NCBI GenBank assembly: GCA_016933575.1
Contig: JAFGAR010000070.1
Coordinates: forward strand, 1 to 64,000
Direction: 5' to 3'
Origin: Candidatus Thorarchaeota archaeon
GTDB taxonomy: Archaea > Asgardarchaeota > Thorarchaeia > Thorarchaeales > Thorarchaeaceae
Length of the DNA stretch: 64,000 nt
The position numbers and the translations under genes were made by a program. Positions 14,172 to 51,201 of this stretch are shown in pieces. Every line of letters begins with the position of its first letter. Position 1 is the first letter of the stretch. Below the pieces are notes generated by a model. The model worked only from the letters and a program-made list of their open reading frames with translations. It had not been told where the DNA came from and made no database searches.

Positions 14172-17100
14172 ATGGCTCAAATCTCATGGACTGATCACTT
14201 CAAAATTAAGGAATTCGTAGAGGATATCGGGATTGGATTTGTAGTATTAACTGAAGATGGTCAGATTCTTCATTCTAATTCACAATTTTTGCATATGTTA
14301 GATTACACGCAAGAAGAGATTGTTGGGCTCAATTTTGAGTCATTACAAACAAATGAACCAAAATTAGTGATTCATGATATCACTAGTGGGGATAAAGAGA
14401 TCACACTATCGTCCAGAACTGGGTCTGATGTTTCTGTTATCGTAAAGGGCCGTAAATTGGATGAACAAAAATCAATCTTCTATCTTCTTATTTCGCAAAG
14501 CGATGAAGATCAACCGCGATTCACACCGAGGTTTCTACAAGCCCTAGAACTAGCATCTCCTCGAATGATCATTGTTGACCCAGAGCTGAAAATTCAATAT
14601 GTAAATCATGTAGTAGCAAGTTTGCAGTCAGTCAAAATGATCGGACGTTCAGCTCTTGATGGAGTTGAGTCACAATATCGTGATGGTCTTCGTGATGCGA
14701 TAGAAGCTGTTTTCCAAGATTGTGTCCCCGGATCTATTGAGATCTCGGAAACAGAACCTAATCAATCAACATCATGGTATGTTCTACGAATTAGTCCAAT
14801 CATAGAGCATGCAAAAGTAGCATCCGTTATACTTACTGCAACTGATATTACCGAGCGTGTGCTCGCAGAGAGAGCACTTAGAGAAGAAGAATCAAAGTAC
14901 CGTAGTATCATTGAACAATCTCTCATCGGAATTGCTATACTTCCTCCTGAACTTACTAGCATTTTGTTTTCTAATAACCAGCTTAGCGCAATCCTTGGAT
15001 ATTCACAAAGCGAATTATCTTCTATGACTGGTCAGATATTGTCTAAACTCGTGTGTGATGAAGATCGAGATAGTCTTGTAAAGTATCTCGAGACTTGTAC
15101 TCGTGGTGAGAAAACAGGAGAATTACTCCGAATCCGATTAAATCATAAAACTGGATCAACAGCTTGGGTCGAGCTTTCAACAGGTAGAATCGAGTATCAG
15201 GGGCAGATAGCTTTGCAGATCTCACTAGTAGATATTACACGACGGCTTGAGATGGAAGAAGGGCTTGTTGAAAGTGCTGTTCGTGAAAAGACATTGCTAC
15301 AATCCTTGAATGATCTCGTAATTGTTCATGATGAGAATGATCGATATCTTGAATTATATACAGGCAATACAGAGATGCTTCTCGGTAAACCAGAAAACAT
15401 CCTTGGTAGACATATATCCGATGTGCTTCCTGAAGAAATAGCGCTGATATATCTTGATTGCATCCATGAAGTCAGGAGTTCTCGCAAGACTAAGTCGATT
15501 GACTATTCTCTGAAAATCAATGATGAAATTCGATGGTTTTCTACAATAATGAGTCCTCACGAGAAAGAAGGCAGTATCATCAGTGTTGTTAGAGACATCA
15601 CAGATCGGTATATTGCTGAAATAACAAATCAAAGAGATCGAAGAATCTTTCGAGATATTGCACATGAACTATTGAATACAAGGGATTACAATCAACTGAC
15701 AATCAATATTCTGAATAGCATAAAAGAGAACTTTGAATTTGATCTAGGGCTCTTTATCTATTATGATCCAGAAAGAGAGGTCTTAGTTAAGGCAGCATCT
15801 GTTGGAGATATGAAGGGACCTAATCCTCCAGAAATCTCCCTCTCCGATAAAATAGCAGATTCCTACGTGGTTATCCATGCCTTCAAGACCAAACAACCCC
15901 TCTTTATTTCTCATATTGAGAAAGAGCGACAAGAGCTTGACTTTCTAAATCGCTTACGAGAACAAGGCGCACAATCTGCCATTGCTATACCGATTCTTGA
16001 CGACAATCATGATGCTATAGCAGTAATAAGTTTTGCATCAACCAAGCCTAGATTATTTACAGATGGTGACTTGGAGTTATTTTCAACAATATCAGGGATG
16101 ATTGCAACTCTAACCGATCGACAAAAAGTTGAACTTCAGAGACAAATCGCTCAAGAAACTCTGGAAAGAGAACGCAGAGCATTTCAGACAATCGCTAATG
16201 CAGCAATAGCAAGTTCTGATACTTTAGATTTAGGTACAAATATTATGCAGGGTCTCATTGAAACCCTTGGTTTTGACTTCGGCACCCTTCGGCTTTTCGA
16301 TGCGAATGAACAGGTTCTAAAACCAACTGCAATTGTTGGTATCAATGTCTCGAACTTAACAACACAGATTCCCTGTCGCTTTGATGAAAAACCATCACAC
16401 CTTGTTTCACATGTTGCATTGACAAGGGAAAAAATAATTGCTCCTGATACCTATCAACATGAGTCCACACTTCTTTTCAAAAAGAGGTTAGATGAACTGA
16501 ATGTGAAGTCGATTGTGGTCTGGCCAATATTGAATGCGAAAGAAGATATGATTGGAGTCATGAGCATAGGATCTTATGAACACAGAGCAATTCCTGAATC
16601 TACTGAACCTTTCTTTGATGCTCTTTCAGGAATGTTATCAACTGTTATAGAACGTAAGAAGACAGAACAAGCTCTGATTATTAGTAAACGGAGATATCAG
16701 GAGCTCATCACTGATATCTCTGAAGGGATTGGAATAGCAGACTTGGAAGAAAATCTTCTTTTCGTAAATGACTCCTTCGCAGAGATGTTGGGTCACACAA
16801 GAGCAGAACTAATTGGTATGAACTTGCGCGAGATTGTTGCTCCTGAGGATATACCGACAATAGTAATGAACACAAAGCTTAGACTAGAAGGAAAGACATC
16901 AAGCTATATTCATAGTTTCATTCGAAAGAACGGCGAACAAATAGTAGTCAGAGTTTCTGGTGTGCCATCTAGAGATGATAGTGGTACAATCGATGGTACT
17001 ATAGCTATAGTTACTGATATTACTGAAATGGTCAAAGCAGAAGAAGCTCTAAGAGAATCAGAGATTCGATTCAGAAGTGTTTTTGAAACATCTCCGGTTG

Positions 17101-18179
17101 GAATGCATCTTCATGAGATGTCTGATTCTGGAGAGATCATCCTAGTGGATGCTAATCCAGCTGCAGATGTGGTTCTAAGGGCAAAACATGATGAGCTAAT
17201 TGGAAAACCCATACAATTAGCTGTACCAGAGAGGTATCATGAAAATGGATTGATAGAAAGATACTATGATATCATAAGAACAGGAATCCCTTGGAGTACT
17301 GAACGATTGATGGAACGCGATGGCAATGTTTTTGGAGCATTGCAGATTCAAATCTATCGAACCTCTCCACGTACCCTAGTCACCTCTTTCTTGGATATCT
17401 CAGAGCGTGTCATCGCGGAAAGGGAAATTCGCAAACTGAATGAAGAACTTTCAAATCGTGTCGAGGAGCGGACAGCAGAACTTGCTGCAGTAAACAAGGA
17501 ACTAGAGGCTTTTGCGTATTCCGTATCACATGATCTTCGAGCTCCGCTTCGTACAATTGATGGGTTCAGTCAAGCTCTACTTGAAGACTACTATAACGCT
17601 GTTGATGAAACGGGACAAGACTATCTTCAACGAGTAAGATCCGCTGCTATTAGGATGGGTCTACTAATCGAGGATATACTTTCTCTCTCACGAGTGACAA
17701 GATCTGATATGGATCGCATTTCGGTCAATCTATCAGATCTCGTTAATGAGATCATAAAGGAAATCAAAGATAGAGACCCAGAACGTGAGGTTGAAGTAAG
17801 AGTGTCTGAAACAGGAGATATTCGATGTGACCGACGACTTATGAAAATTGCATTACAGAATCTACTTGAGAACTCATGGAAATTCACTCATAATGTTGAG
17901 AATCCTAAAATCCAGTTTGGAACCAAGAAAATTGATGAGAAGACCGTATACTTTGTCCAAGATAATGGTGCTGGATTTGATATGAAAAATAAGGATAAAC
18001 TATTTGTACCGTTTCAACGATTGCACATGGAAGAGGAGTTTGAAGGATCTGGGATAGGTCTTGCAACTGTTCAGCGAATTCTGAACAGACACGGAGGATT
18101 AATTTGGGCGGAAAGCCAAGTCGGCAAAGGTTCAACCTTCTATTTCACAATACCCGAGAAAAGTGAGGCTGAAAATTGA
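14172..18179 (+). CDS. Large PAS/GAF hybrid sensor histidine kinase
   Basis: A 1335-residue cytoplasmic sensor kinase without membrane helices. Domain order: about four PAS domains (residues 15-480), two GAF domains (about 490-650 and 665-830), two more PAS domains (about 840-960 and 965-1085), a short coiled linker with E-E-R-T-A-E-L-A, a HisKA phosphoacceptor domain with S-V-S-H-D-L-R-A-P-L (His1120), and a HATPase domain with L-Q-N-L-L-E-N-S-W-K-F (N box), D-N-G-A-G-F-D (G1) and G-S-G-I-G-L-A-T-V (G2). The end is phytochrome-kinase-like. Signals are probably small molecules, redox state or light through PAS/GAF cofactors; no phytochrome cysteine motif was evident. It overlaps the following receiver gene by four bases. 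Confidence 0.93.
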   Translation: MAQISWTDHFKIKEFVEDIGIGFVVLTEDGQILHSNSQFLHMLDYTQEEIVGLNFESLQTNEPKLVIHDITSGDKEITLSSRTGSDVSVIVKGRKLDEQKSIFYLLISQSDEDQPRFTPRFLQALELASPRMIIVDPELKIQYVNHVVASLQSVKMIGRSALDGVESQYRDGLRDAIEAVFQDCVPGSIEISETEPNQSTSWYVLRISPIIEHAKVASVILTATDITERVLAERALREEESKYRSIIEQSLIGIAILPPELTSILFSNNQLSAILGYSQSELSSMTGQILSKLVCDEDRDSLVKYLETCTRGEKTGELLRIRLNHKTGSTAWVELSTGRIEYQGQIALQISLVDITRRLEMEEGLVESAVREKTLLQSLNDLVIVHDENDRYLELYTGNTEMLLGKPENILGRHISDVLPEEIALIYLDCIHEVRSSRKTKSIDYSLKINDEIRWFSTIMSPHEKEGSIISVVRDITDRYIAEITNQRDRRIFRDIAHELLNTRDYNQLTINILNSIKENFEFDLGLFIYYDPEREVLVKAASVGDMKGPNPPEISLSDKIADSYVVIHAFKTKQPLFISHIEKERQELDFLNRLREQGAQSAIAIPILDDNHDAIAVISFASTKPRLFTDGDLELFSTISGMIATLTDRQKVELQRQIAQETLERERRAFQTIANAAIASSDTLDLGTNIMQGLIETLGFDFGTLRLFDANEQVLKPTAIVGINVSNLTTQIPCRFDEKPSHLVSHVALTREKIIAPDTYQHESTLLFKKRLDELNVKSIVVWPILNAKEDMIGVMSIGSYEHRAIPESTEPFFDALSGMLSTVIERKKTEQALIISKRRYQELITDISEGIGIADLEENLLFVNDSFAEMLGHTRAELIGMNLREIVAPEDIPTIVMNTKLRLEGKTSSYIHSFIRKNGEQIVVRVSGVPSRDDSGTIDGTIAIVTDITEMVKAEEALRESEIRFRSVFETSPVGMHLHEMSDSGEIILVDANPAADVVLRAKHDELIGKPIQLAVPERYHENGLIERYYDIIRTGIPWSTERLMERDGNVFGALQIQIYRTSPRTLVTSFLDISERVIAEREIRKLNEELSNRVEERTAELAAVNKELEAFAYSVSHDLRAPLRTIDGFSQALLEDYYNAVDETGQDYLQRVRSAAIRMGLLIEDILSLSRVTRSDMDRISVNLSDLVNEIIKEIKDRDPEREVEVRVSETGDIRCDRRLMKIALQNLLENSWKFTHNVENPKIQFGTKKIDEKTVYFVQDNGAGFDMKNKDKLFVPFQRLHMEEEFEGSGIGLATVQRILNRHGGLIWAESQVGKGSTFYFTIPEKSEAEN

Positions 18180-34508: not shown

Positions 34509-35255
34509 TTACTCTGTTGCTTGTATATCCGCTTTTCTAATTTTCTTGCCTACCTGTGCCCAGTCTAAGCGGACAGCAAGATATACGGTCACAATGAGTA
34601 ACACAATACCCAGGACTTCCACTGTTGCTGAGATTGGAGTGACAGGTCCTCCGACTCCTAATAGCTCAATGAACCAGTCCAAGCTAAGACGTCCAGCCCA
34701 CGAAACAGCTGAGAGAAAGATAATCTCACCAATAAGACATGGCCAAAATAACTTCCACCATGAATATCTGGCTACACCCAAAGCAACCACTGCAGGGTCT
34801 AGAGGAAGTGGTGTGGATGCTAGAAGAAAGATTGCAGCTGGTGTGGCTCTAGGATAGGTTTCAATGAATCTACTGAATCCCTTAGTATTAGCATCATCAA
34901 CTAGACGTCTTCCCGCATAACCCAGAGCATAGCTTGTCATATCGCCAATCGTTGCTCCAATACCTGACAAGATCCCCACTACCCAGGGATCGAATATGAA
35001 AGGACCAACAATTCCATCGCGCAAACCTCCAAGTACAAATGGAACGCCAGCAAACGGAATCTCGACAACAACACTTGCACTTCCCAGCAGACACACGAGG
35101 AATGTTCCTGGGTAGCCCAAAACAACTGCAAAATCAGCGACCCATTGAAAGAAATTAGCTAGTGGACTAACAGCAGAAGGATACACCAAGAGGACTATCC
35201 AATACATGAAAGCAATTATCATAGAAGACGCAAATACTTGATCTGCACGTCTCAT
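34509..35255 (-). CDS. DedA/VTT-domain membrane protein, copy 2
   Basis: A 248-residue membrane protein of the DedA/VTT (SNARE-associated) family. An N-terminal helix is followed by the VTT core with the re-entrant loop region E-I-P-F-A-G-V-P-F-V-L-G-G, G-A-T-I-G-D-M-T-S-Y-A-L-G-Y-A-G-R-R near 110, and F-L-L-A-S-T-P-L-P-L-D-P near 145, then two C-terminal helices. Relatives such as TMEM41B, VMP1, DedA and YqjA are lipid scramblases or flippases or support proton-dependent membrane homeostasis. It overlaps its paralogue by four bases. Confidence 0.82.
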   Translation of the reverse strand: MRRADQVFASSMIIAFMYWIVLLVYPSAVSPLANFFQWVADFAVVLGYPGTFLVCLLGSASVVVEIPFAGVPFVLGGLRDGIVGPFIFDPWVVGILSGIGATIGDMTSYALGYAGRRLVDDANTKGFSRFIETYPRATPAAIFLLASTPLPLDPAVVALGVARYSWWKLFWPCLIGEIIFLSAVSWAGRLSLDWFIELLGVGGPVTPISATVEVLGIVLLIVTVYLAVRLDWAQVGKKIRKADIQATE

Positions 35256-35986
35256 TGATCTTTGTCCTCCTCCTTTGGTATGAGCATAGACCAGTTAATC
35301 GTAACTAGAAAATAGATTGCTATAATAATCAACAAAACACTTGATACCTCAATAGCCCTCGAAATAATGCTTGTCGGATCGGTACTGCCTATCAATGAAC
35401 CAATGAAATCCAACCCAATTCTACCCGACCATGCTACTCCAATCATGAACATTGTCTTTCCAAGGAATTGGGGCATCATCACCTTCCACCATGGATATCT
35501 TGCTGCTCCTAGTGGGACAATTAGGACATCATCAGGAAACGGTGTCACAGCAAGGAACCATAATACAAATGGTGTCGCCTTTGGATGTCTTTCCACATAT
35601 TTCCTGAAAGCATCCCTCTGGTTCTCTTCTATAAGCTGACCTCCACCATAACCCACAAAATAACTTATCATCTCTCCGAGCATTGCACCAAACCCAGAAA
35701 GGAGACCTACCAGCCATGGATCAAAAAGGAATTGACCAGTCATTTCGTCAGTCAATCCTCCAAGAATGAAAGTCACTCCCATATACGGGAATGGGAAGAG
35801 TACTGTAGCGTTTCCGATAAAGGAGATCAGCAGATCACCAGAGTATCCAAGTAGTAGGGAAAAATCTAGAAACCAGTTGTATACAAGTACTATCGGACTA
35901 GCTATCCCTGGAATTATGATTGAAATTACAAAATACGCTGCCAATGAGATGATCGCAAGTAGAAGGAATTTATCAGCTCTTCTCAT
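35252..35986 (-). CDS. DedA/VTT-domain membrane protein, copy 1
   Basis: A 244-residue paralogue of the next gene, sharing the start M-R-R-A-D, the V-P-F/V-T-F-I-L-G-G-L loop, G-A-M-L-G-E-M-I-S-Y-F-V-G-Y-G-G and W-F-L-A-V-T-P-F-P-D-D. Where copy 2 has D-M-T-S-Y, this one has E-M-I-S-Y, so the acidic residue in the core is kept. The tandem, overlapping arrangement implies both are made together and may form a heteromer for lipid movement. Confidence 0.82.
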   Translation of the reverse strand: MRRADKFLLLAIISLAAYFVISIIIPGIASPIVLVYNWFLDFSLLLGYSGDLLISFIGNATVLFPFPYMGVTFILGGLTDEMTGQFLFDPWLVGLLSGFGAMLGEMISYFVGYGGGQLIEENQRDAFRKYVERHPKATPFVLWFLAVTPFPDDVLIVPLGAARYPWWKVMMPQFLGKTMFMIGVAWSGRIGLDFIGSLIGSTDPTSIISRAIEVSSVLLIIIAIYFLVTINWSMLIPKEEDKDQ

Positions 35987-37730: not shown

Positions 37731-40700
37731 CTATTCTTCTGTTGTGTTATCTTTTTTGGGCTCTTCATCTTTCTTTGCCGTTAAGAGCGATTCAACATCC
37801 TTAACGAAGGCTTCCATTGGGTCAATCTCTTTCTCAGACTCAGAAGGTGGAGGTTCGATATCTACGTCCTTGTCGTGAGTTGGTTCTTCTTCTTTCTCTT
37901 CTTCTATATCCTCAGGCTCTTCTTCTGTAATCTCATCCTCTGGAACTGGTTCCATGTCTTCCTCAGACTCTTCGGTTGAAGGCCCTTCCATGATTTCTGT
38001 TGGCTCTCCATTAGAGAGACCCATCCCCTGTCGTTGAAGGACAGTCTGCACGCCGACTGGGACTATTGCGCCTTTGTCTTGAAGGGCTAACAGTCTATCC
38101 AGGATTTTAGCTTCGGATTCTTCGAGCATCTCAGAGAGTGGTGTCAACAGATTTCTGATGAAGAACTCTCCCCGTTCATCCCTGACTGCTGCAATGTAAT
38201 CAAGAATTCTTGCTTCAGTTTTCGAGACCTTTTGTGTTGGTCCAAACCTGTGCGGGAGCAGCCATGAATAATTGAATGCTGAATTCAATGTTGATACGAC
38301 CCATTCTGGGTCGAAGCAGTCGATAAGCCCAGTCCACCCATCAAGGTCTCTCTCATATTGATTCTCGAATAGTTCAACAAAGAATTGCAATCGGTCTTTT
38401 AGGAGGGGCGTCATCTCTCCCTCCAAAATGAGGATTCCTATGATCTTATCACCGCTATAGCTGTTCAATCGAAGTCCATGATATTGGATCTCTTCAAGAG
38501 TTCCACGTACGCCATCACCTTTGATTTCACCATATACACTCGTTATTGCTGCAATGAATCCGCTGATTAGGTCTGGTTGAATTCTTTCGTCAGTGAATGG
38601 ATGGTAGAAGACACAAGTTCCTCTATCGAGGTAAACTGCCATGAAATGTCGAAGTGACTCTAGGTCAACAAACATCTGAAGCTGGTTGTCAAGCGAAGAG
38701 CGAGCTGCACGCTTCTTTGGTTTAATCTTACGATTATATGTGGCAGCTACAATTCCAAGGACTACAAATGAGATTAGTATGAGTCGTCCTATATTGTCCA
38801 TGAAAAAGAAGTTGAAGAGAATTAGTAGTGGATTGGTTCCTGCTCCAACAGTTATTGCCTTTTCAGCGCTCCATAGTAGTCTACTTCCGTGATAATACGC
38901 TTCAGCTTGAATCGACTCGATACTTCCAGATGGAATCTCAAAATTCCATGTTGCAATACCATTTGTGTTTGTTGAGTCGTATTGTGAACTATCGTCTCTA
39001 ACGAGTTGAGTACCATTTACGAATGTAATTCTAACAACAAAATAGATGTCTTGTCCAACTACAGGCGTTCCTGTGTCATTATAACGTAATGTGGCAATTA
39101 GGCTTACAATTTGTCCCTCTATACTTGGGTCTCCCTCAGAAGTCAATTCAAGATTAACAGAACGTTTACCCTGAACGAGTAGTGAGAATGTGTCAGAGGC
39201 TGAGTTAGCCAAAGGTGCACTTGCCGCAATAGCTACCGTATAAGTTCCAGGCGTAAGATCGAGTAAAATTTCAATGCTGTAAACACCTGCTGAGTATGCT
39301 AATGTATAATCGACACCATCAAGGGTCATCACTACATTTGCTCCAGTTATTGGAGTGCTATAAAGCGAGTCTGAATACGTCACTGTAACTGTGAGATTCC
39401 ATTGTTCGTATTCTTGGTCGAGTGCGTCGATAGAGATAGTAGTAGTTGCTCGCACACTCAGGGTGAGAAAGACTGTAGTTGTTTCATATCCATATCTGAC
39501 CATGGTCACATTGACTTGATAAATCCCTGCAGTCTGAGGTGGTGCAATATTGACTGAATATTCTCCGACTGCATATACTGTTTCAATTCCATTGACTGTG
39601 ATATACAAGATAGCATCACTGATTATTGTACCAATCGAATCTCTTACAGTCATAGCCAGAGGCGCGTCTGTTGCATAATCTGTGGTCGCTGCGGAACTTG
39701 TCCACGAGTTTTCTAGCGAGGGAATATCCTCTGTCACATAGAGAGTCTGTGTTTCTTGTCCTTGGTCATAGCCATCTCTACTAGCTCGCACAGTGAGTGT
39801 TGTGGTACCAAGGTAATCACTACCATCCAGTGTGACTTCCCACTGCTCAGAAAGGGGATTATAGGTCATGTTTACTAGTGGATATCCAACGAATGTAACT
39901 CTGACCCAAGCATCGCTAATCGGGACAGAGTTGAAATTATATGTGACAGTTATCGTGATCTGTTCTATGTAGGTGATATTTCGATCTGTTGGGTTCCAAT
40001 CAACAGAGAATACAACTCCTGTCTCACTACTTACAGAGATCGTCAGTGTGTCATTATACTGAGGTGCATATCCTATCTTCCATGCACTAACGTTTAGTGA
40101 GATAATACCTGGGACACCAGTGAAATTCTCGCCATGCAATTCAATCCAATAGACCTCTGCTATACCGTCCCATGTGAGATTGTAGGTATGCGATTCAAAG
40201 GTGACATTCACCCATGCACCTGGAATACGTATATCATTCACATCCACGTAGGAAACTGTGAGATTTGTACTTTCCAAGTAAGAAATGTCATTACCCTGCA
40301 ACCAAGTCCAGTTAATCGGTTTAGTTTCATAGGTTAGGTCAATAGCGATTATTAGACTCTGATTTTCCAAAGCATACCCTTCTGCATAGATGTAAAGAAG
40401 ATGAATACATGATGACATCCCTGTTGTGTCTATATCCTTCGTCCACCTCCCATTTCCCTGATCATCCATAGTCGCATTGATTATCGCACCAAATGAATAT
40501 GTGACATCTGATAGGGAATCATCTATTCCTAGAAACGGAAATATGCAATCAAAATCAACACCTATTGAGAATGCTGAAGATGTATCAGCGTATGCTGAGA
40601 TACTATAATCATCAGCAACAAGAGTTGTTGAGTAGAACACGAAGACTTCTGTCACCAGATAGCCTGCTTCCAAACCGTTTGACCAGAACACTTCAATTGA

Positions 40701-42263
40701 ATATGTTCCATTATAATCTGCAATTGAGTCTATATTCCAGAGATAGTTTGTAAGACCTCCAGACACTGATACATTTGCAGGTGTATATGTAACCACGCCT
40801 CCGTACCAAATTGTGAGATTTGTCATTCCGCTTTCCTGAGGAGTGCCAATTCCATCTTCAACTGAAACATCAATATCGACGTCTGTGAGAATACTTACTT
40901 TATCTAGGATGGGAATTCCCGTAGAAGAATCAGAAAGATCTATTGCAGTGACATAATTATCTGCAGTATTGGTTAGAATCCAAGTGCCATTCGTCAAGTC
41001 CGTACAGTAAACTAGACTTCCAATCTTTGTGAAATGTCCATAATCAATACTAGTGCTATTGTATAGTCCGATTGGAGTCCAATCTGACGGTATTGAAACA
41101 TTCGCGAAATAAGTTGTTGTACCTGATGCTACTGGAAAGTCTAAAATCATTGAAACATTCCAATATACTTGATCTCCTGAATTTATCACATTCCAAATAG
41201 TTGATGCAGTGCTCTCTTTCTTATATTGGAGGGTTATGTTATAATCTATGGTAATCGACTGGTTCGATTGAAAATTAATTAATGCCATGTCATCATTTGA
41301 TGTGAATGACCAAGATGTTCCACTTAAGCTGGTTCCATTGCCTGTTAGGGCAATTTGCTCTGCGGTGGCATAAGTAAGAGGCGCATTTTCAGTCTTATTC
41401 CAAGGTGTATATGTATAGTTGAGTTCAGCTTCTCTTATTTGCCCTGCGTCATAGACATCCCAATCATTTGGAGGTGCTACGTCACGTAAGTGATAGCCAG
41501 TCTGAAGACCTGCATAGGGATACCTTGCTTCCCACCAGATTGAATTGAACACCCATTCATCCACTGGAAAAGGTAAGTATTGACCTATCATATTTGTCCC
41601 ATCTATAACTACATAGTAGAACGTACTCGCATTCATAATAGCTCCGTCTGGAGAACAATCGTGAGTTATTACTTGGTAAAAAGCAGTTTGACTGAATGGT
41701 GTTACCCATCCAGTGACATTAGTTTGTTTATCAGAAAAATTACTTCTCACAACGAGATATGCATGACCCAGAGTGGCTTCGTATTCTGGTGATCGGTAGG
41801 TAAGAGAGTAATTTTCCAGTTTTCCATCGTGAGGCTGATTGTAAAATTCTTGATACAATGCATCTGTTATCAATCCTGTATTATTCTCTATTTTGATGGC
41901 ATCATTAGGATTGATGTTGAATGTCTTACGTTCCGCTGTAGCATTGATATCACTTGCATTGATTTCTATACTAAATAGTGTCCATCCTGGAATTTGATAG
42001 GATGAAAGGTCCAATTGTTCTTGATGGAGTGCATTGTTATATGAGTTCAAAATACTCATTGACTGCCCATTAATGAATCGAGTCATTGATAACACGAGAT
42101 TAGTATCGACTCCATCATTTCCCACATCTGCAATTATTGAATGATCATAAAATGGATTTGAGGTATTAGTAATCGGAGTCACTGTTGAGGGATTAATATC
42201 TGCAATAACGGGAATTATCAGTATTAGCATAAATAAGATGATTGAACTCCGGGTCTTTCTCAT
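37731..42263 (-). CDS. Giant surface receptor with Ig-like repeats and a longin-like cytoplasmic domain
   Basis: A 1510-residue type I membrane protein. There is a signal peptide (1-21), then an N-terminal domain (about 30-330) shared with the 2863-residue neighbour, then about eight Ig-like repeats (about 440-1130) rich in N-x-S/T sites. A membrane helix follows at about 1145-1170 with K-I-K-P-K-K-R on the inner side. The cytoplasmic part begins with a longin/roadblock-like domain (about 1190-1330: L-R-H-F-M-A-V-Y-L-D-R-G-T-C-V-F-Y and P-D-L-I-S-G-F-I-A-A-I). Next is a possible winged helix (about 1345-1405, A-K-I-L-D-R-L-L-A-L-Q-D-K-G-A-I), then a very acidic tail (about 1410-1500). It probably binds outside and recruits small-GTPase-type partners inside. 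GTGAGG precedes the ATG. Confidence 0.8.
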   Translation of the reverse strand: MRKTRSSIILFMLILIIPVIADINPSTVTPITNTSNPFYDHSIIADVGNDGVDTNLVLSMTRFINGQSMSILNSYNNALHQEQLDLSSYQIPGWTLFSIEINASDINATAERKTFNINPNDAIKIENNTGLITDALYQEFYNQPHDGKLENYSLTYRSPEYEATLGHAYLVVRSNFSDKQTNVTGWVTPFSQTAFYQVITHDCSPDGAIMNASTFYYVVIDGTNMIGQYLPFPVDEWVFNSIWWEARYPYAGLQTGYHLRDVAPPNDWDVYDAGQIREAELNYTYTPWNKTENAPLTYATAEQIALTGNGTSLSGTSWSFTSNDDMALINFQSNQSITIDYNITLQYKKESTASTIWNVINSGDQVYWNVSMILDFPVASGTTTYFANVSIPSDWTPIGLYNSTSIDYGHFTKIGSLVYCTDLTNGTWILTNTADNYVTAIDLSDSSTGIPILDKVSILTDVDIDVSVEDGIGTPQESGMTNLTIWYGGVVTYTPANVSVSGGLTNYLWNIDSIADYNGTYSIEVFWSNGLEAGYLVTEVFVFYSTTLVADDYSISAYADTSSAFSIGVDFDCIFPFLGIDDSLSDVTYSFGAIINATMDDQGNGRWTKDIDTTGMSSCIHLLYIYAEGYALENQSLIIAIDLTYETKPINWTWLQGNDISYLESTNLTVSYVDVNDIRIPGAWVNVTFESHTYNLTWDGIAEVYWIELHGENFTGVPGIISLNVSAWKIGYAPQYNDTLTISVSSETGVVFSVDWNPTDRNITYIEQITITVTYNFNSVPISDAWVRVTFVGYPLVNMTYNPLSEQWEVTLDGSDYLGTTTLTVRASRDGYDQGQETQTLYVTEDIPSLENSWTSSAATTDYATDAPLAMTVRDSIGTIISDAILYITVNGIETVYAVGEYSVNIAPPQTAGIYQVNVTMVRYGYETTTVFLTLSVRATTTISIDALDQEYEQWNLTVTVTYSDSLYSTPITGANVVMTLDGVDYTLAYSAGVYSIEILLDLTPGTYTVAIAASAPLANSASDTFSLLVQGKRSVNLELTSEGDPSIEGQIVSLIATLRYNDTGTPVVGQDIYFVVRITFVNGTQLVRDDSSQYDSTNTNGIATWNFEIPSGSIESIQAEAYYHGSRLLWSAEKAITVGAGTNPLLILFNFFFMDNIGRLILISFVVLGIVAATYNRKIKPKKRAARSSLDNQLQMFVDLESLRHFMAVYLDRGTCVFYHPFTDERIQPDLISGFIAAITSVYGEIKGDGVRGTLEEIQYHGLRLNSYSGDKIIGILILEGEMTPLLKDRLQFFVELFENQYERDLDGWTGLIDCFDPEWVVSTLNSAFNYSWLLPHRFGPTQKVSKTEARILDYIAAVRDERGEFFIRNLLTPLSEMLEESEAKILDRLLALQDKGAIVPVGVQTVLQRQGMGLSNGEPTEIMEGPSTEESEEDMEPVPEDEITEEEPEDIEEEKEEEPTHDKDVDIEPPPSESEKEIDPMEAFVKDVESLLTAKKDEEPKKDNTTEE

Positions 42264-42486: not shown

Positions 42487-45400
42487 TTAATCCTTCTTCT
42501 TAATCAACCTCTTTGAGCCCTGGCGAACTTCCTCCAAACTGGAATCTGATTCTAACAAATCTTTTACAATAGACCCTGTCTTGCTAGAAGATAATCCCAA
42601 GCGTTCTGATATTTCCGCACGGGTTAATCCAGTATCACTATTCAATATCTCCTGCCTGGCACGATTTATTGGATCTGTTAATGATATTGATTCAACGGGA
42701 CTAACATTTGGTGTGGTTACTGGTGATGAGACATCTACAATTCCTGGTCCCCTTTTTCGTTTCATCAATGCTATAGCAAGAAGTGGAAATGAAACGCCTC
42801 CAGCTATTACTGCTATCATTACTGGATTGTTCAAGATTATGTCTAAGATACCAGAGTTTGGAGCTGTGATAGCTATGTGTCGGGGCGAAGATAATGCTAG
42901 CCACGTTGATAATGAGCCATTATATTGAACGACAATATCTAACGCAATTGCATCCAATGGCACAGTGAATTCGATTGTAGCCACTCCATCGCTGGAGGTC
43001 GATGCACCCATGATAGTAATTCGAGAACCATCTTCTGTAATAACAGTAATTGAGAATACTAGTTGAATACCACTAACTGGAGTACTTTGTTGATGAACTG
43101 TAGCTGTTACAAGAAGTACTTCGCCTGTCTGTATCTCTTCCACAGCAGATACTGAAATCGTATAGGTTGCTTTTTCCAGTATAACAAGATCAATGTATGC
43201 GATCTGAGTTTCGCAATCACTGGCTATTACTTCAAGCGACAGGTTGTATGTTCCTGGTACAAAAGTACTGAGCCAGATTGAAGTCGAATAATTCTGAGAG
43301 CCTGCTGAGTATACCAGCGAGTATTCAACACTATTTAGAACCACTTTCACATTGGCCCAATCAATTGGAATCATATTGTTCGTATCTGCTAACTTAATCG
43401 TGATTAGGATTGTTTCGTTTTCGTATTGGGAAATCTGTGAAGTGAATTCAATTTGGGTTGGTATTGGCATAACATCAATAATGACTTGACCAGTTCCGTT
43501 ATCATATCCTGCACACTCAAGAAGTATATTCAAAGTATAGCTTCCAGTGTGTACTGATCCACCTCCAATCTCAACAATATATGTCCCATTCCCTAAGTCT
43601 ATCACGTTACTAGTACTAATCCAGTCAATAGATGAGAGAGCCCCACTAATTCCACTATTTGTTCTTGTATCGAGGAATGTGAATCTAATGGAAGTAGACT
43701 CTCTTGCAAACATCACTAGAGGTTCGGGATTCACTACAATAGTGGGAATGAGTAAGATAGTAATTTCTAACATGTACGAATGTGTGGAATAGCCATAGGC
43801 TAATGTCGTGATGTTGAACGTATGTATACCAACGCCTAGGTCTTGTCCCTCAATATTTAGAACCCAATGGTCTGTACTCCACACTACACTCTGAGTCACT
43901 TCTTCTAGAGTGACAACACAAATGGCTCCTTGAATGATGCTCAAATTACTCATTCTATAGTAGATATCCGCCAGTTCATTTTCATCAAAATAGAACGTGC
44001 TTGTGGATGGTAAGACGCTCAATGTTGTGGATTCCTGAATGACTGTTAGAATGTTCGAATACCATCCGTCACTGTAACCCGTCATATTTGCAGTAACTGT
44101 AACATTCCATGTACCAAGGTCAATTTCCGATGCCAGAATACTAAAATGCCATTTCTTATCAATTGAATTATAGACAAGGTCATAGACTGTACCGTTGATT
44201 GAGAGTCGCACGGTTGCCCCAACTATTGGTTGAAAATCTTCAGTGTAAATGACCGTTAGATTTACAGTATCTGTATAGCTTGGTTGTAAGTTTCCCGGCT
44301 CCCAAGTCACAATAAATGAGTTTGCGGCAAGTGTCACATTTACTCCCAAAGTAAGGTTGGCTCGATGAGTGTAGCCATATAGCCATGCACTGATTGTAGC
44401 TTCGTAATAGCCTATGCCTAACTCATTACCGGAAATACTTATTCTCCAAGCATTTGATGAGTAAGTAAGATTGTAAATGTGCGTATCAATGGTCATATTG
44501 ACTATTGCTGTATCAGGAACATCTCCTCCATAGTATGTATAATCAACTACTAACGTCAGTACGCCTGTGTATTCGATTGTCACATTGCTTGGGTCCCAAA
44601 TCACGCTAAGTTGATCTGTAATCACTTCACTGACCATCAAGGTTTCTAGAGCTTCTGCATAAGTATAACCATAGGCATCTGCTCGAATGATAACTGTATG
44701 TTCACCTAAGTCAAGATTGATACCGGTCAAATTGAAGTACCAAAGATCTCCAGATGATAGTAATGGAATTGGAGTAGTTCCGTCGATTGAGATATTGATA
44801 TTAACTCCTGTTGGAACTGCTTGACCTGTTAGAACATAGAAGTAGTTAGCAGTGAGGTCTATCTGACCTAGATAGTCAATTGTAATTGAATTCCAATCAA
44901 GATCTAGATTAGTTATAGCCTCAATTATATTGAATTCAATTGAGGCGTTTACTGCAAACTGATACCCATATTTACTGATGTTTACAACAACGACATGATT
45001 ACCGAGATTAAATGAGTTGTTGAATTCAAACCAATAGACACCATTTGTTCCATGTAACACGTAAAGCGTTCCATTAATACTGATTGTCTTAAGCGTCGCG
45101 TTCTCGATGAGTGAACCATGGGAGTCTCGATATTCAATCTCAAGGATGATGCTCTCAGTCCAATCTATAGTATCTGTAAGCCAGGAAGCAATTGCTAGAG
45201 TTGGTTCTTCATCAACAGCAAGAGTTGTGGTTGCAAATTGACTTGAGTATACGTCCCCTGAAGCAAGTATACTCATGCTATAGTTACCTAATCCTGGAGG
45301 ATTCATATTTCCATAGAATTTATACTGATAACCTCCTATAGAACCATTCCATATTAGTGACCAATTATCAAACCCAATCGTGACATTTAGAATCCCTGTT

Positions 45401-48400
45401 GATATGCTAGTTCCATTACTCATCCTGTAGTAGACAGTTAAAGTTGTAGATTCAATAAAGGTGATTGAATTGCCATTGGACCATGTCACTTGGATAGTTG
45501 TCGGATCTTTGGTCAGAGTGAGGTACTCTGATGTGTTATGAGCGATTTTGAAACCATACTTTTTAGCATCAACCACAACTGTGTATGTTCCAAATCCCGG
45601 TGGAATATCCGATCCATTGAAGCAGATACCATATGAACCTTCAGTTGCATTCCATAGGAGATTCCAAGTTTCAATCTCGATAGTAACATTGACCGATGCT
45701 CCCAGAATTGGTGATGAATTACTCATCAGATAGTCTACAAACAAGTATGTGTATTCAAAATATGACACATTATTCTGATTTGGAGAACTCCATCTGGGTA
45801 TCAAAGTTGTTATTTCTTCGTTTATGTGGAGATTCAGATAATTGTCAGTCAGCCCAACAAATCCAAATCTTTCTGCTTTAATCTTCAATTCATGTGTTCC
45901 GAATCCAGGCAATGAGTCAAATCCATTGAAAACTAAACGATATGTTTCACTTAGACTATGCCAATGTAGCTCCCAGAACATAGTTGTATCGATGGTGACA
46001 TTGACAGTTGCAAGAGCGATTGGTGTACCATCCGATGTTGTATAGTTCACAACGAGGATTGTTGATTCAACATAAGAAATATTGTCTCCACCAATCCAAT
46101 AACAATCAATCATCACTGACTCGGATAGTATTCGTAATGTCTCTAAGTTATATTCAGCATCCTTATACCCTTCATGTAATATGTAAGTGCTAGAAATATA
46201 GAGTCTATGTGTTCCTAGACCTGGGGGATCCATATTACCAGTGAATGTGAATACATAGAGGTGTAGGTCTGAGTCGTACGTTGCTTCCCAGATATCCGTT
46301 CCAATTCGAATAGTCACGTACGCATCTTCAACAGGAGAACCATCTGATATGGAATAATTGATGTGGATTGTTGCACTCTCTGTGAAAGTAATGGTATTAT
46401 TTCCGTCCAACCATATGGCATGAAGTGTTGTTGCTTCTTGATTGAATGTGATGGACTGCGAAATGTCAATTTGAGAGAGATAGTTTGATTTCCATGCTTG
46501 GGCTAGCAAAGTATGAGGTCCAATCACAGGAATGGGGAAAGTATCCCCTGTGAAGACCACCTCATATGCTTTTTCCGCCTCATTCCAATTTGCAGGCCAA
46601 GTCAAGACATATGTAACATTCACTGTTGCCCCTAGTACTGCAGCACCACTTTCCAATCGGTAATATATCCTGAGTATTGTTGTTTCGAGGTATGTTATTG
46701 TATCGCTTGGTACCCATTCAAAGGAAATGGTCGTGTCTTCTCGTCGTATTGTGAATTTTTCTTCTAAATCGACAGATGGAAGATAGCCATAGCCAGAAGC
46801 ATTGATTAATACGTCAAAAGTATCAAAGTAAAAACTACTATCATTACCTCTAAACTCCCTTTCATACGCATTGCTAGTACTATTCCAGACGAGGTCCCAG
46901 AGAGTCCCATCTATCGTCACATTGAGCATTCCTGTTGTAATTGGTGTTGAGTTACTCATGATGTACTGAACAGATAGGATCGTTGTACTATAGTAGGTGA
47001 TATTATTACCATTAGTCCAAAAGATAACAAGACTGGTGGGTTCTAAGCCAATTGTCAGCGTTTCTGTATTATTTGATTGGTATTGGAAATCACTCTTTGA
47101 GGCATTGATGACTAGTGAATAGGTCATGAAATCTAGCGAGCTATCCGACCCTGAGAAAGTTCCTTCATAAGCGTGCGATTGAGAGTTCCATGTAAGATTC
47201 CACGTGACACTGTTTATTGTGACATTGACAACAGCATCGAGAATCCAAGTATCGTTATACATCATATAGAAGACTTGCAAAGTTGTATCTTCAACATAGG
47301 TGATATTATCACCATTGGTCCAAGTAATTGTCAATTTAGTCGGAATGACTGGAATTATCAATTCTTCATCGTTATTTGTCTGGTAACCGAATCCGTAACT
47401 CCAAGCTTGGACAATTACAGTATAGGTTCCAACTCCAGGATATACATCCGAACCATTGAATCTCAGTTGATAATATTCCGCAGACTCGTTCCAATACATC
47501 AACCATGTTCTTGAATTAACTGTTGCATTGATGTATTCTAACACTACTGGTTCATCATTGTCATAGTTGTACTCAGCAATCAGGTAAGTATACTCATAGA
47601 ATCCTGGGTTATTTACTCCATTTGCCCAGTAGACATACAGAGAAGTTGGTTCCTCAACAAGAGTGACTCTCTCAGTTGGATCCAATACTGCTTCAAATCC
47701 TAATCTTGATGCGTGAATAATTACGGTAAATGAGCCAAGTGCTGGTAGATCTTCAGATCCTTCAATATAGAGGTAGAATTTCTGCGCTGTTGAATTCCAT
47801 ACCATTGGCTTCAGAACACCTGCTACAGTTGCGTTGACAATGGCATCAGATATCGCACTATTGTTGTTATTCATGATATAATTTACAGTCAGGACACATC
47901 TACCCATGTAAGTAGTTTCATTCGTAGGAATCCATTGAACTATGAGTGTTGTTGCTTCATTTTCAATAGTAAGGGAATCGTTATCAAATACAGTAATGAA
48001 TCCATATCGAGAAGCGTTAATTGCAAGAGAGTGTGTTCCTAAGCCGGGCGGTGCATCACTTCCTGAGAATTCCCATCTATATGTCTGAGTTCCTCCATCC
48101 CAAGTAAGGTTCCATGTTGATACGCCAATCGTAATGTATACTATAGCACCTGAAATTGGTGTTCCATTAGACATTGTGTAATTGATTGAGATAATCGTTG
48201 ATTCAACATATGTTATTGTTGACGGACCTATCCATTGCGTATCAATGGTTGTTGGTTCTGGTCTTAATATCAGATCTTCATCTATATTCTCTTTATTGGC
48301 AAAACCGTACTTATCTGCTTTAATTGTCAGCTTATGCGTTCCAAAGCCTGGAGGCAAATCCGAACCATTGAATATCAAGATGTATGATTCTGATCCATCC

Positions 48401-51078
48401 CAAATTAGATTCCACGAAGGATATCCGCTGATTGTTACATTCACCATAGCTCCTTCAATAGGTGAACCATCACTCATATTGTAGGAAACGATTAGAGTAG
48501 TCTGCTGTACAAATGTGATATTGTAATCTGAGGACCATTTGATTGTTAATGAGGTTGACTCAATATTAATAGTAAATGAAGTAGTGCTGTTTGAATGGTT
48601 TTCAAATCCGAATTTTCCAGCCGCAATATTGATGCTATGTGTTCCCAATCCTGGAAGTACGTCACTACCATTAACAGTCAGATAGTATAGCTTTGAAATT
48701 GGATTCCAGTGTAGTTCCCAAGGTGTTGTATCAATTGTTACATTTACGATAGCATCCAGTACTGGTTGACCATCAGACATTGTATAATTTACAATTAACA
48801 TGGAGTCCTGTACATAGGTGATAACATCTCCATTTAACCAAGAAAATGTGAGAGAAGTGTACTCCTTATGAATCGTAAGTGTCTGAGTTGTGTCACTCTG
48901 TTCTCTATATCCTTCCCGCCAAGCCTCTATCTCGAGATTGAAGGCTCCAAATCCTGGGAATACATCAGTTCCATTGAACGTGATTCTATAGAGGCTTAGG
49001 TCTCCATCCCAATGGAGTGAATAAGGTGTTCCATCAATCGTTACATTGACAGTTGCATCAGTAACCGGGATTCCACCAACTCGATTGTAAGTCACTAACA
49101 GACTTGTTGTTTGGACATAAGAGATGTTGTTTGTATTCGACCATTGTACAAAAAGCGGTTGTGTATCATGAATGAGTAATGCATCAATAATTAAACTCTG
49201 GTTTTCTATTGCATACCCTTCAGCATAGACTCTAACAGTATAAATCCCTGAAGATTTTCCTGATGTATCAATAGATGCTGTCCAAATTCCATTACTCAAA
49301 TCTATCAGACTTGTATTAGTGCCTCCATCAAATGAATACATGACCATAGCATAAGCACCATCCAGTCCTTGAGGCGTGAATGTATCTGTTAGATTGACAC
49401 TAATGGAAAAACTACTGTCAGTATATGCATCTATTTGATATGACGAAGCAGAGAAACTAGTAGGATAATAAAGGACCAGCTCTTTAGTTCTGTATCCTGC
49501 TTCTGTGCCATTACACCAGTATTCAGTAATTGTATACTGACCATTTGAAAGTGTAGTTGAACTAATGTCCCATAAGTAATGTGATTTTCCAGTGACTACT
49601 GACTGATTATTTGGAGCCCATATTTTGGAACTAAGATGAAAGATCGTGAGATTCGTAGTACCTGTACCCACGGGATTTAGATCTATATCTGTCAAAGTTG
49701 AATTGATATTAATTTCAGAATCTATGGAAGTCTTCGTAAAAACCTCAATATCATTTTCTGCATCATAAGTCTGTATTGAAGTTAGATAATTTCGAGATGA
49801 GGATATCAGAGTCCAAGTATCGTTGCTTAATTCAGAGCATTGGATGACACTTTGAAGTCTTTCATAGCTCGAGTGGTTTGTAGATGGTGCTGATGATTTG
49901 TAGAGTCCTGACACAATCCATGTTGTTGGTATTGTTAGATTGAGAAATTTCCGTTCAGCTATCATTGGATATTCAATAGCAGTTGATACATTCCATTCTA
50001 TATCTTGTCCCGACTCGGTGGCAAACCAATTTGAAGGCGATGATACTGATTTTCTGTAAGAAAGTACCATTGTATAGGAAATCTCAACAGACTGACTTGA
50101 GTCAAATTCTATGCAATCAATATTATCTTCATCAGAAAAAATCCATGTTAATCCTGAAAGCGCTGATGTGTTACCCCTAATATTTACACTCGTTGGATCC
50201 AAGTAGACAAGAGCATTGTTACTGGTCTTATTCCATGGTGTGTATGTATAGTTGAGTTCGGCTTCTCTCATCTGCCCAGAATCATATTGATCCCAAATAC
50301 CATCTCTAATGTGATATCCTGTTTCAAGTCCGAGATAGGGATATTGTGCCCTCCAGTATATTTTATTGAATTTCCATTGACCATCGTAAATCCCCTCCAT
50401 TCCAGTCCCATCGATAACAACATAGTATTTAGTACTAGCATTTAGAATTGCATTATCAAGTGAGCACTCATGAGTGATTGTCACCCAAGACAATCCTTGT
50501 TGAAACGGAGTTATCCATGAAGTGATATTTGTCTGTTTATCTGAATAATCACTCCTTACCACGAGGTAAGCATGTCCAAGATCCGGATAGTATGGATATA
50601 CTAGTGCACCAAATGTGTAATTTTCTAATTTTCCATCGTGTGGTTGACTATAAAATTCCTGATATAATGCATCGTATACGAGCCCTGAAACGTTTTGAGT
50701 ATTAATGTAGTTATTTGGATTCACACTGAGCCTTTCATGCTCTGCAACAGCAGTGATCGAACCAACTTCTATTGAAACCTCATACAGTTCCCATGATGGA
50801 ATATAATATTCTAAAAGGTTCAACTCTCCTACATGCTGATTAATGTTAGAATAGGAGTTTACAATATGCAAGGATTGTGTACTAATGTTACGTGTCATGA
50901 AAGCTATTGAGTCTGATATACTTCCTAATCCTTCGACCGATGCTAAGGTTGAAAAATTGTGAAAAGTACTATCCTGATTAAATTCACTGGCATAGCTGTT
51001 TTCTAAAGTCGTATTTCCTGTTGGAACAGATAATAAGCTAATCATAAGGAAGACCATTAAAACAGCCAAACGTTTCAT
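42487..51078 (-). CDS. Giant surface protein with about 20 Ig-like repeats and a cytoplasmic winged-helix domain
   Basis: A 2863-residue type I membrane protein. There is a signal peptide (1-24), then an N-terminal domain (about 30-400) nearly matching the neighbour's (both contain D-A-L-Y-Q-E-F-Y, Q-P-H-D-G-K-L-E-N-Y, L-G-H-A-Y-L-V-V-R-S, Y-T-Y-T-P-W-N-K-T). About 21 Ig-like repeats of 95-100 residues follow (about 640-2735), each with T-Y-x-E-x-T-x-L, G-x-x-V-N-V-T-I, W-x-L-x-W and F-x-G-S-D-x-x-P-G-x-G-T-H. One membrane helix is at about 2740-2765 with K-R-K-R inside. The last 65 residues form a MarR/ArsR-type winged helix (R-A-E-I-S-E-R-L-G-L-S-S-S-K-T-G). A surface protein ending in a DNA-binding domain suggests a direct membrane-tethered transcription regulator. 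Confidence 0.82.
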   Translation of the reverse strand: MKRLAVLMVFLMISLLSVPTGNTTLENSYASEFNQDSTFHNFSTLASVEGLGSISDSIAFMTRNISTQSLHIVNSYSNINQHVGELNLLEYYIPSWELYEVSIEVGSITAVAEHERLSVNPNNYINTQNVSGLVYDALYQEFYSQPHDGKLENYTFGALVYPYYPDLGHAYLVVRSDYSDKQTNITSWITPFQQGLSWVTITHECSLDNAILNASTKYYVVIDGTGMEGIYDGQWKFNKIYWRAQYPYLGLETGYHIRDGIWDQYDSGQMREAELNYTYTPWNKTSNNALVYLDPTSVNIRGNTSALSGLTWIFSDEDNIDCIEFDSSQSVEISYTMVLSYRKSVSSPSNWFATESGQDIEWNVSTAIEYPMIAERKFLNLTIPTTWIVSGLYKSSAPSTNHSSYERLQSVIQCSELSNDTWTLISSSRNYLTSIQTYDAENDIEVFTKTSIDSEININSTLTDIDLNPVGTGTTNLTIFHLSSKIWAPNNQSVVTGKSHYLWDISSTTLSNGQYTITEYWCNGTEAGYRTKELVLYYPTSFSASSYQIDAYTDSSFSISVNLTDTFTPQGLDGAYAMVMYSFDGGTNTSLIDLSNGIWTASIDTSGKSSGIYTVRVYAEGYAIENQSLIIDALLIHDTQPLFVQWSNTNNISYVQTTSLLVTYNRVGGIPVTDATVNVTIDGTPYSLHWDGDLSLYRITFNGTDVFPGFGAFNLEIEAWREGYREQSDTTQTLTIHKEYTSLTFSWLNGDVITYVQDSMLIVNYTMSDGQPVLDAIVNVTIDTTPWELHWNPISKLYYLTVNGSDVLPGLGTHSINIAAGKFGFENHSNSTTSFTINIESTSLTIKWSSDYNITFVQQTTLIVSYNMSDGSPIEGAMVNVTISGYPSWNLIWDGSESYILIFNGSDLPPGFGTHKLTIKADKYGFANKENIDEDLILRPEPTTIDTQWIGPSTITYVESTIISINYTMSNGTPISGAIVYITIGVSTWNLTWDGGTQTYRWEFSGSDAPPGLGTHSLAINASRYGFITVFDNDSLTIENEATTLIVQWIPTNETTYMGRCVLTVNYIMNNNNSAISDAIVNATVAGVLKPMVWNSTAQKFYLYIEGSEDLPALGSFTVIIHASRLGFEAVLDPTERVTLVEEPTSLYVYWANGVNNPGFYEYTYLIAEYNYDNDEPVVLEYINATVNSRTWLMYWNESAEYYQLRFNGSDVYPGVGTYTVIVQAWSYGFGYQTNNDEELIIPVIPTKLTITWTNGDNITYVEDTTLQVFYMMYNDTWILDAVVNVTINSVTWNLTWNSQSHAYEGTFSGSDSSLDFMTYSLVINASKSDFQYQSNNTETLTIGLEPTSLVIFWTNGNNITYYSTTILSVQYIMSNSTPITTGMLNVTIDGTLWDLVWNSTSNAYEREFRGNDSSFYFDTFDVLINASGYGYLPSVDLEEKFTIRREDTTISFEWVPSDTITYLETTILRIYYRLESGAAVLGATVNVTYVLTWPANWNEAEKAYEVVFTGDTFPIPVIGPHTLLAQAWKSNYLSQIDISQSITFNQEATTLHAIWLDGNNTITFTESATIHINYSISDGSPVEDAYVTIRIGTDIWEATYDSDLHLYVFTFTGNMDPPGLGTHRLYISSTYILHEGYKDAEYNLETLRILSESVMIDCYWIGGDNISYVESTILVVNYTTSDGTPIALATVNVTIDTTMFWELHWHSLSETYRLVFNGFDSLPGFGTHELKIKAERFGFVGLTDNYLNLHINEEITTLIPRWSSPNQNNVSYFEYTYLFVDYLMSNSSPILGASVNVTIEIETWNLLWNATEGSYGICFNGSDIPPGFGTYTVVVDAKKYGFKIAHNTSEYLTLTKDPTTIQVTWSNGNSITFIESTTLTVYYRMSNGTSISTGILNVTIGFDNWSLIWNGSIGGYQYKFYGNMNPPGLGNYSMSILASGDVYSSQFATTTLAVDEEPTLAIASWLTDTIDWTESIILEIEYRDSHGSLIENATLKTISINGTLYVLHGTNGVYWFEFNNSFNLGNHVVVVNISKYGYQFAVNASIEFNIIEAITNLDLDWNSITIDYLGQIDLTANYFYVLTGQAVPTGVNINISIDGTTPIPLLSSGDLWYFNLTGINLDLGEHTVIIRADAYGYTYAEALETLMVSEVITDQLSVIWDPSNVTIEYTGVLTLVVDYTYYGGDVPDTAIVNMTIDTHIYNLTYSSNAWRISISGNELGIGYYEATISAWLYGYTHRANLTLGVNVTLAANSFIVTWEPGNLQPSYTDTVNLTVIYTEDFQPIVGATVRLSINGTVYDLVYNSIDKKWHFSILASEIDLGTWNVTVTANMTGYSDGWYSNILTVIQESTTLSVLPSTSTFYFDENELADIYYRMSNLSIIQGAICVVTLEEVTQSVVWSTDHWVLNIEGQDLGVGIHTFNITTLAYGYSTHSYMLEITILLIPTIVVNPEPLVMFARESTSIRFTFLDTRTNSGISGALSSIDWISTSNVIDLGNGTYIVEIGGGSVHTGSYTLNILLECAGYDNGTGQVIIDVMPIPTQIEFTSQISQYENETILITIKLADTNNMIPIDWANVKVVLNSVEYSLVYSAGSQNYSTSIWLSTFVPGTYNLSLEVIASDCETQIAYIDLVILEKATYTISVSAVEEIQTGEVLLVTATVHQQSTPVSGIQLVFSITVITEDGSRITIMGASTSSDGVATIEFTVPLDAIALDIVVQYNGSLSTWLALSSPRHIAITAPNSGILDIILNNPVMIAVIAGGVSFPLLAIALMKRKRGPGIVDVSSPVTTPNVSPVESISLTDPINRARQEILNSDTGLTRAEISERLGLSSSKTGSIVKDLLESDSSLEEVRQGSKRLIKKKD
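42865..49165 (-). repeat. Tandem Ig-like repeat array within the giant surface protein
   Basis: About 21 consecutive coding repeats of roughly 290-300 bases each. Repeats 2-4, 7, 8 and 11-13 are most alike (shared M-S-N/D-G-x-P-I and G-S-D-x-P-P-G-x-G-T-H). The last seven diverge strongly, which suggests expansion in the membrane-distal part. Repeats differ at the DNA level, so the array is old rather than a recent slippage product. Confidence 0.75.
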
Positions 51079-51201
51079 CTTATTTTTCCTCAGGCAACAA
51101 ACGGTCGATGAACTGCACGACAGATATACATATCTTCCTCATTTTGTTTGAAAAGGTGAGCTGTTATGTACTACTTTTCATTTAAAGAAGGGTTCGTCGA
51201 A

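Follow-up and report, generated by a model that had tools for sequence, protein, structure and literature searches.

Membrane-tethered regulators such as ToxR and CadC combine a winged helix with an extracytoplasmic domain, with the DNA-binding domain being N-terminal and of the OmpR type. CadC in particular has been described as a membrane-tethered winged-helix protein with an extracytoplasmic domain (PMC5430869). A survey of bacterial and archaeal transmembrane transcription regulators (TTRs), whose main text does not contain the word 'Asgard', recovered 1,384 of them in 404 archaeal species and gave an average of ~4 per archaeal genome; among all such regulators the single-pass form is the commonest, at ~56% (Demey et al. 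2023, PMC10269533). Here we describe P0001, a giant, predicted single-pass surface protein ending in a winged helix, which is encoded in a 64,000-nucleotide stretch of DNA (hereafter the window) from Candidatus Thorarchaeota archaeon (assembly GCA_016933575.1, contig JAFGAR010000070.1, positions 1 to 64,000). Our computational analysis covers the layout of the protein, the signals of its topology, its winged-helix fold, the arrangement of the genes in tandem, their distribution over lineages and the nearest relatives of the tail. We found no account of a protein of this type, or of the type of its downstream paralogue P0002, in the open-licence literature.

The original prediction had placed in this part of the window a gene for a 2863-residue protein with a signal peptide and a single membrane helix followed by K-R-K-R, and these elements are all borne out. 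The open reading frame (ORF) has an ATG start and 2863 codons and lies on the minus strand; its product begins with MKR and a hydrophobic segment, with comparable hydrophobic N-termini being present throughout the family alignment; and the C-terminal hydrophobic stretch PVMIAVIAGGVSFPLLAIALM (residues 2752-2772) is succeeded by KRKR (up to residue 2776) and then by a 91-residue tail. The gene and its parts are as follows:

42487..51078, minus strand: whole gene of P0001, 2863 aa, stop codon included
51151..51162, minus strand: upstream element AGCTCACCTTTT, 73-84 bases before the start, candidate promoter/operator
51013..51078, minus strand: signal peptide, residues 1-22, boundary approximate (hydrophobic residues 4-22 after MKR)
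49762..51009, minus strand: N-terminal domain, residues 24-439, family-specific (alignment A1, Pfam-unmatched)
43711..49146, minus strand: 18 tandem repeats of ~101 residues each, residues 645-2456 (iterated profile search, alignment A10)
43210..43704, minus strand: two further repeat copies, residues 2459-2623 (iterated profile search)
42763..42825, minus strand: single transmembrane helix, residues 2752-2772 (hydropathy 2.2; homologues have a counterpart)
42751..42762, minus strand: KRKR stop-transfer cluster, residues 2773-2776 (Lys/Arg bias in 11/11 homologues)
42673..42750, minus strand: linker, residues 2777-2802, predicted disordered (low predicted local distance difference test score, pLDDT, in the AlphaFold model)
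42496..42672, minus strand: winged helix, residues 2803-2861 (AlphaFold, Foldseek, Pfam HTH_24)

The proposed C-terminal winged helix is upheld by several lines of evidence. An AlphaFold model built from an alignment of ten homologous tails (A2) has three helices (H1-H2-H3) and a two-stranded wing in tail residues 27-85, with pLDDT >90. A Foldseek search of the PDB with this model recovered winged helices at probability 1.00, including those of the RNA polymerase III 39K subunit, ArsR, SmtB, MarR/MepR and RbkR, with E-values all >=0.001 because the domain is short. When the tail alone was scanned, the Pfam model HTH_24 scored 24.7 bits, above its cut-off of 21.9 (18.5 bits when the whole of P0001 was scanned). 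Moreover, 11 genomes that were assembled separately keep the tail, although identity in the N-terminal domain falls to ~34%. The score above the HTH_24 cut-off, the high pLDDT and the conservation in 11 genomes together indicate that the winged helix reflects more than chance, and its presence in 11 independent assemblies led us to reject an assembly artefact or chance fusion as the source of the tail. The further claim of a MarR/ArsR likeness stands at the level of the fold, given the ArsR and MarR/MepR structures among the Foldseek matches, but not by the curated cut-off for the MarR family (PF12802/PF01047), because MarR_2 reaches just 17.1 bits on the P0001 tail against a threshold of 27.0. 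Within the set of tails and their soluble relatives, MarR_2 matches reach an E-value of 3.2e-10. The DUF7343 model (PF24034) is likewise below its cut-off on P0001 (17.5 versus 27.6 bits). Among the conserved positions of the tail (in its own numbering) are R44, where helix 2 begins, and S54 and K57, where the recognition helix begins, and such helix starts are where winged helices usually contact DNA. This conservation favours DNA binding by the tail, without proving it.

The orientation of the protein in the membrane could be assessed from two signals. Every one of the 11 homologues has 2-6 Lys/Arg within the 15 residues that follow the helix, compared with 0-2 before it. The N-x-S/T sequons occur in the ectodomain at 2-3 times their frequency in shuffled sequence in every one of the 11 (98 observed in P0001 versus 41 +/- 6 in shuffled sequence); the reversed pattern [ST]xN, with 50 occurrences in P0001, is less enriched. 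Tails of ~90-105 residues have no sequon or one, and the longer tails of the homologues from genomes G015 and G016 have two. The basic residues after the helix and the sequon-rich ectodomain thus support an N-outside, C-inside topology, in line with the cytoplasmic C-terminus originally predicted. P0001 therefore displays three features by which TTRs are recognized, namely a predicted transmembrane region, a predicted DNA-binding domain and cytoplasmic placement of that domain.

The ectodomain begins with an N-terminal domain of ~415 residues, to which the Pfam scan assigned no family; its alignment (A1) of 30 homologues has 17 invariant columns, and its C-terminal part is detectable by profile across Asgard archaea. 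Between it and the repeat array lie ~200 residues devoid of recognised repeats, of which residues 541-625 give a weak Invasin_D3 match, below the Pfam cut-off. Beyond the 18 tandem repeats, which are strong copies matched over 645-2430, there is one good copy (2555-2620) and a weak one (2474-2525), for a total of ~20, near the ~21 first counted. The Ig-like label attached to them remains unconfirmed, since Pfam matched none of the 18 and a PDB profile search gave no convincing structure; by eye, the repeats are all-beta in appearance.

To trace relatives we used the N-terminal alignment as the query, since a scan of the genome contigs with the whole of P0001 recovered none. This profile detected homologues in 75 of the 228 Asgard genomes. 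The same architecture in other Asgard genomes, which the original prediction had suggested looking for, was indeed found, with the winged-helix tail occurring in only 11 Thorarchaeal genomes, nine from the genus of the window and two from another genus. In every genome with both genes on one contig and read through to the tail (G000, G015, G017, G019, G021, G024, G029 and G030), the winged-helix copy lies directly upstream of a longin-tailed copy, with both the tandem order and the flanking genes being conserved. Several other genera have one longin-tailed gene between the same flanks (a DUF2299 gene and a gene for a 100-aa protein). G015 and G016 are intermediate in that their winged helix is C-terminal to another cytoplasmic region, and in G015 the region preceding it aligns with longin tails. 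At a similar position, starting 74-85 bases 5' of the winged-helix gene, the four core same-genus genomes (4/4) share an upstream element, AGCTCNNCTTTT with one variant AGCTTGACTTTT, which is absent 5' of those longin copies that were examined. By its placement the element at 51151-51162 is possibly a promoter or operator. We also observed that two adjoining VTT-domain (PF09335) membrane proteins are encoded beside the locus (34509-35986, minus strand) and are its neighbours in many Thorarchaeota.

The paralogue, its family and the soluble relatives of the tail discussed below are encoded at the following positions:

37731..42263, minus strand: downstream paralogue P0002, 1510 aa, with a longin tail, a like ectodomain plan and one membrane helix
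38016..38720, minus strand: cytoplasmic longin domain and helical/winged-helix-like region of P0002, residues 1182-1416 (AlphaFold predicted template modelling score 0.74)
37731-42263, minus strand, with L117-L119, L123-L147, L151 and L152: Asgard-wide family of exported single-pass surface proteins whose cytoplasmic tail is a longin domain
G000 C212:31375-31548 (L179), with L092, L093, L095, L096, L181 and L184: soluble coiled-coil/winged-helix protein

P0002, which the original prediction did not mention, is 41% identical to P0001 across residues 8-887 of the latter; for the N-terminal domain, the identity of P0001 to its longin-tailed sibling is 41-45%. The best PDB matches of the P0002 tail model in Foldseek are AP-complex sigma subunits, zeta-COP, Sec22b, TRAPP and VAMP7, all of the longin fold. 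This domain was recognised by fold alone, as a PDB profile search with the tail gave nothing significant. It is followed by a winged-helix-like region and then an acidic tail. The N-terminal domain of P0001 belongs with this family (profile A1, E-value 2e-159, with P0001 itself in the profile), and its 91-aa tail contains the winged helix only, with no cytoplasmic longin. Across loci in other Asgard families, 29 of 30 full-size ORFs matching the longin-tail profile have a membrane helix directly before the tail (seven of the 30 had built the profile, and the remainder are independent), so a longin tail is what members of the family usually have. In Thorarchaeal longin copies (37731-37900, minus strand, and the homologues in alignment A4) the acidic C-terminal tail finishes with a conserved helix-like motif, DPMEAFVKDVESLL / AEQFIEEVERLL, sometimes repeated, which may serve as a short binding motif. 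Two sequences in the longin-tail alignment, probably L118:4855-6180 and L119:6401-7735, show weak MIT-domain matches (best E-value 0.0015) that hint at a possible link to the endosomal sorting complexes required for transport (ESCRT); L118 and L119 also have a TPR-like C-terminal extension.

As for the source of the winged helix, its closest relative is a soluble coiled-coil/winged-helix protein of 124-184 residues (hhalign 95%, E-value 2.7e-8), which is present in most Thorarchaeal genomes, usually as one copy each; it has a highly conserved recognition-helix motif, SRSRTSEVLNKL, and is probably a transcription regulator. The DUF7343 winged helix is more distant (hhalign 79%), and no relation is detectable with the winged-helix-like region of P0002 (hhalign 2.3%), so we rejected the idea that the tail is a leftover of the sibling's own helix region. 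The nearness of the soluble relative and the unrelatedness of the sibling region support capture of a module over erosion of an ancestral tail, and the adjacent longin-tailed paralogue indicates that a different output was exchanged for the winged helix. A single clade of all winged-helix copies is unsupported in the tree of the N-terminal domain, where they stand beside the longin copies of their own lineage, with three changes on the tree; this grouping would fit either repeated duplication or gene conversion within the tandem pairs.

The likeliest reading of P0001, towards which we lean without great assurance, is that it is a membrane-tethered one-component regulator, and the chain that we infer leads from ligand binding through clustering and DNA binding to an effect on transcription. 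A longin-tailed surface protein would have been duplicated in tandem, after which the upstream copy would have lost the longin module of its cytoplasmic tail and gained instead a winged helix akin to the soluble Thorarchaeal coiled-coil/winged-helix protein. The sequon-rich and probably glycosylated ectodomain, comprising the N-terminal domain on a ~20-repeat stalk, would project from the cell, with a surface ligand, the S-layer or a neighbouring cell as its possible binding partner. Such binding or clustering could gather several P0001 tails beneath the membrane, so that the winged helices, each held by a flexible linker of ~26 residues, would engage DNA cooperatively and, once bound, may alter transcription near the membrane. 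Certain observations weigh against this: the signal would have to traverse a ~2700-residue ectodomain; the winged helix is minimal, being devoid of a dimerization helix; the last 62 residues carry a net charge of just -2 to +5; and the top Foldseek match is the winged helix of RNA polymerase III 39K, with several others coming from ribosomal or condensin subunits, so that sequence-specific DNA binding does not follow from the fold by itself. The same structural matches, ScpB and ribosomal proteins being among those listed, would suit a serious though rather unlikely alternative in which the tail is a protein-protein module comparable to those of ESCRT-II and RNA polymerase III subunits, connecting P0001 with a complex in the cytoplasm and binding no DNA. 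EAP30, matched weakly by 4 of 14 tail relatives (best E-value 3.7e-4), and the longin tail of P0002, itself a protein-interaction fold, point in the same direction. However, the nearest sequence relatives of the tail are small coiled-coil/winged-helix proteins resembling transcription regulators, HTH_24 exceeds its cut-off, and Arg, Lys and Ser are conserved at the predicted DNA-facing helix starts.

That the closest tail relatives are soluble is also what one might expect if ectodomain binding or shedding led to release of the tail by intramembrane proteolysis, after which it would act as a soluble transcription factor in the manner of Notch or SREBP. We consider this a serious rival but an improbable one: although the genome has two Peptidase_M50 genes (the site-2 protease family) above the cut-off, and GG and Pro occur in the membrane helices of several homologues, M50 proteases are found in 14 of 14 control genomes, so their presence is non-discriminating. 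Furthermore, release is not required where there is no nuclear-type barrier, and bacterial tethered regulators such as CadC act without cleavage. It is highly improbable that P0001 has a structural role only, as an adhesin or an S-layer-like component, with the tail tethering it to the nucleoid or a cytoplasmic partner and no gene regulation. The very large, repetitive and sequon-rich ectodomain would be in keeping with such a role, as would the longin tails that pan-Asgard relatives carry instead of this winged helix, but the tail is a discrete domain conserved where the N-terminal domain has diverged, and a simple tether would have no need of a conserved recognition-helix start.

If P0001 is indeed a tethered regulator, it might offer a testable case of cell contact being relayed to genes in an Asgard archaeon without a kinase, as well as a case of a surface receptor acquiring a new output through a tail swap. 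Separately, the window also encodes a 1335-aa histidine kinase with several PAS and GAF domains (14172-18179, plus strand), implying that this genome has conventional kinase signalling too. The Asgard-wide longin-tailed family, which connects a fold at the heart of eukaryotic membrane traffic with the cell surface, may be of broader interest than the winged-helix copy. Speculatively, and with more doubt than confidence, it could be a receptor-like surface family with longin, which is trafficking- or GTPase-associated in eukaryotes, as its ancestral output; domain capture would then have rewired a tandem copy in one Thorarchaeal lineage to DNA, so that two related ectodomains from a single locus would serve two outputs, membrane traffic and transcription.

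Compared with known systems, P0001 differs from ToxR and CadC in that its winged helix is C-terminal and no OmpR-type model is present among the Pfam matches listed. ArnR and ArnR1 of Sulfolobus acidocaldarius are archaeal membrane-bound one-component helix-turn-helix regulators with demonstrated promoter binding (PMC6396743); unlike P0001, they start with the helix-turn-helix domain, continue with HAMP and sensor domains and have two membrane helices at the C-terminus, with no large ectodomain. Closer in plan are the Thorarchaeal DUF7343 proteins, which, like P0001, have an exported ectodomain, cross the membrane once and end in a cytoplasmic winged helix but are ~320-340 aa long with a small ectodomain. 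One of them, L155 (~320 residues; ectodomain, helix and DUF7343 in the same orientation), is encoded in the genome of P0001 itself. The longin-tailed pan-Asgard proteins share its N-terminal domain family, repeat ectodomain, single helix and locus, and differ in having a cytoplasmic longin in place of the unrelated winged helix. Given how widespread TTRs are and the presence of L155, the layout of P0001 is of a known kind, and a C-terminal cytoplasmic winged helix on an exported single-pass protein is ordinary for archaea, with DUF7343 proteins and ~4 TTRs per genome. The huge ectodomain, which the original prediction called unusual, does set P0001 apart from the surveyed TTRs (PMC10269533), with its ~2750 residues of N-terminal domain and repeats. 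Besides this giant array of repeats outside the cell, what is new in P0001 is its longin-tailed sibling in tandem and the signs that the tail was exchanged.
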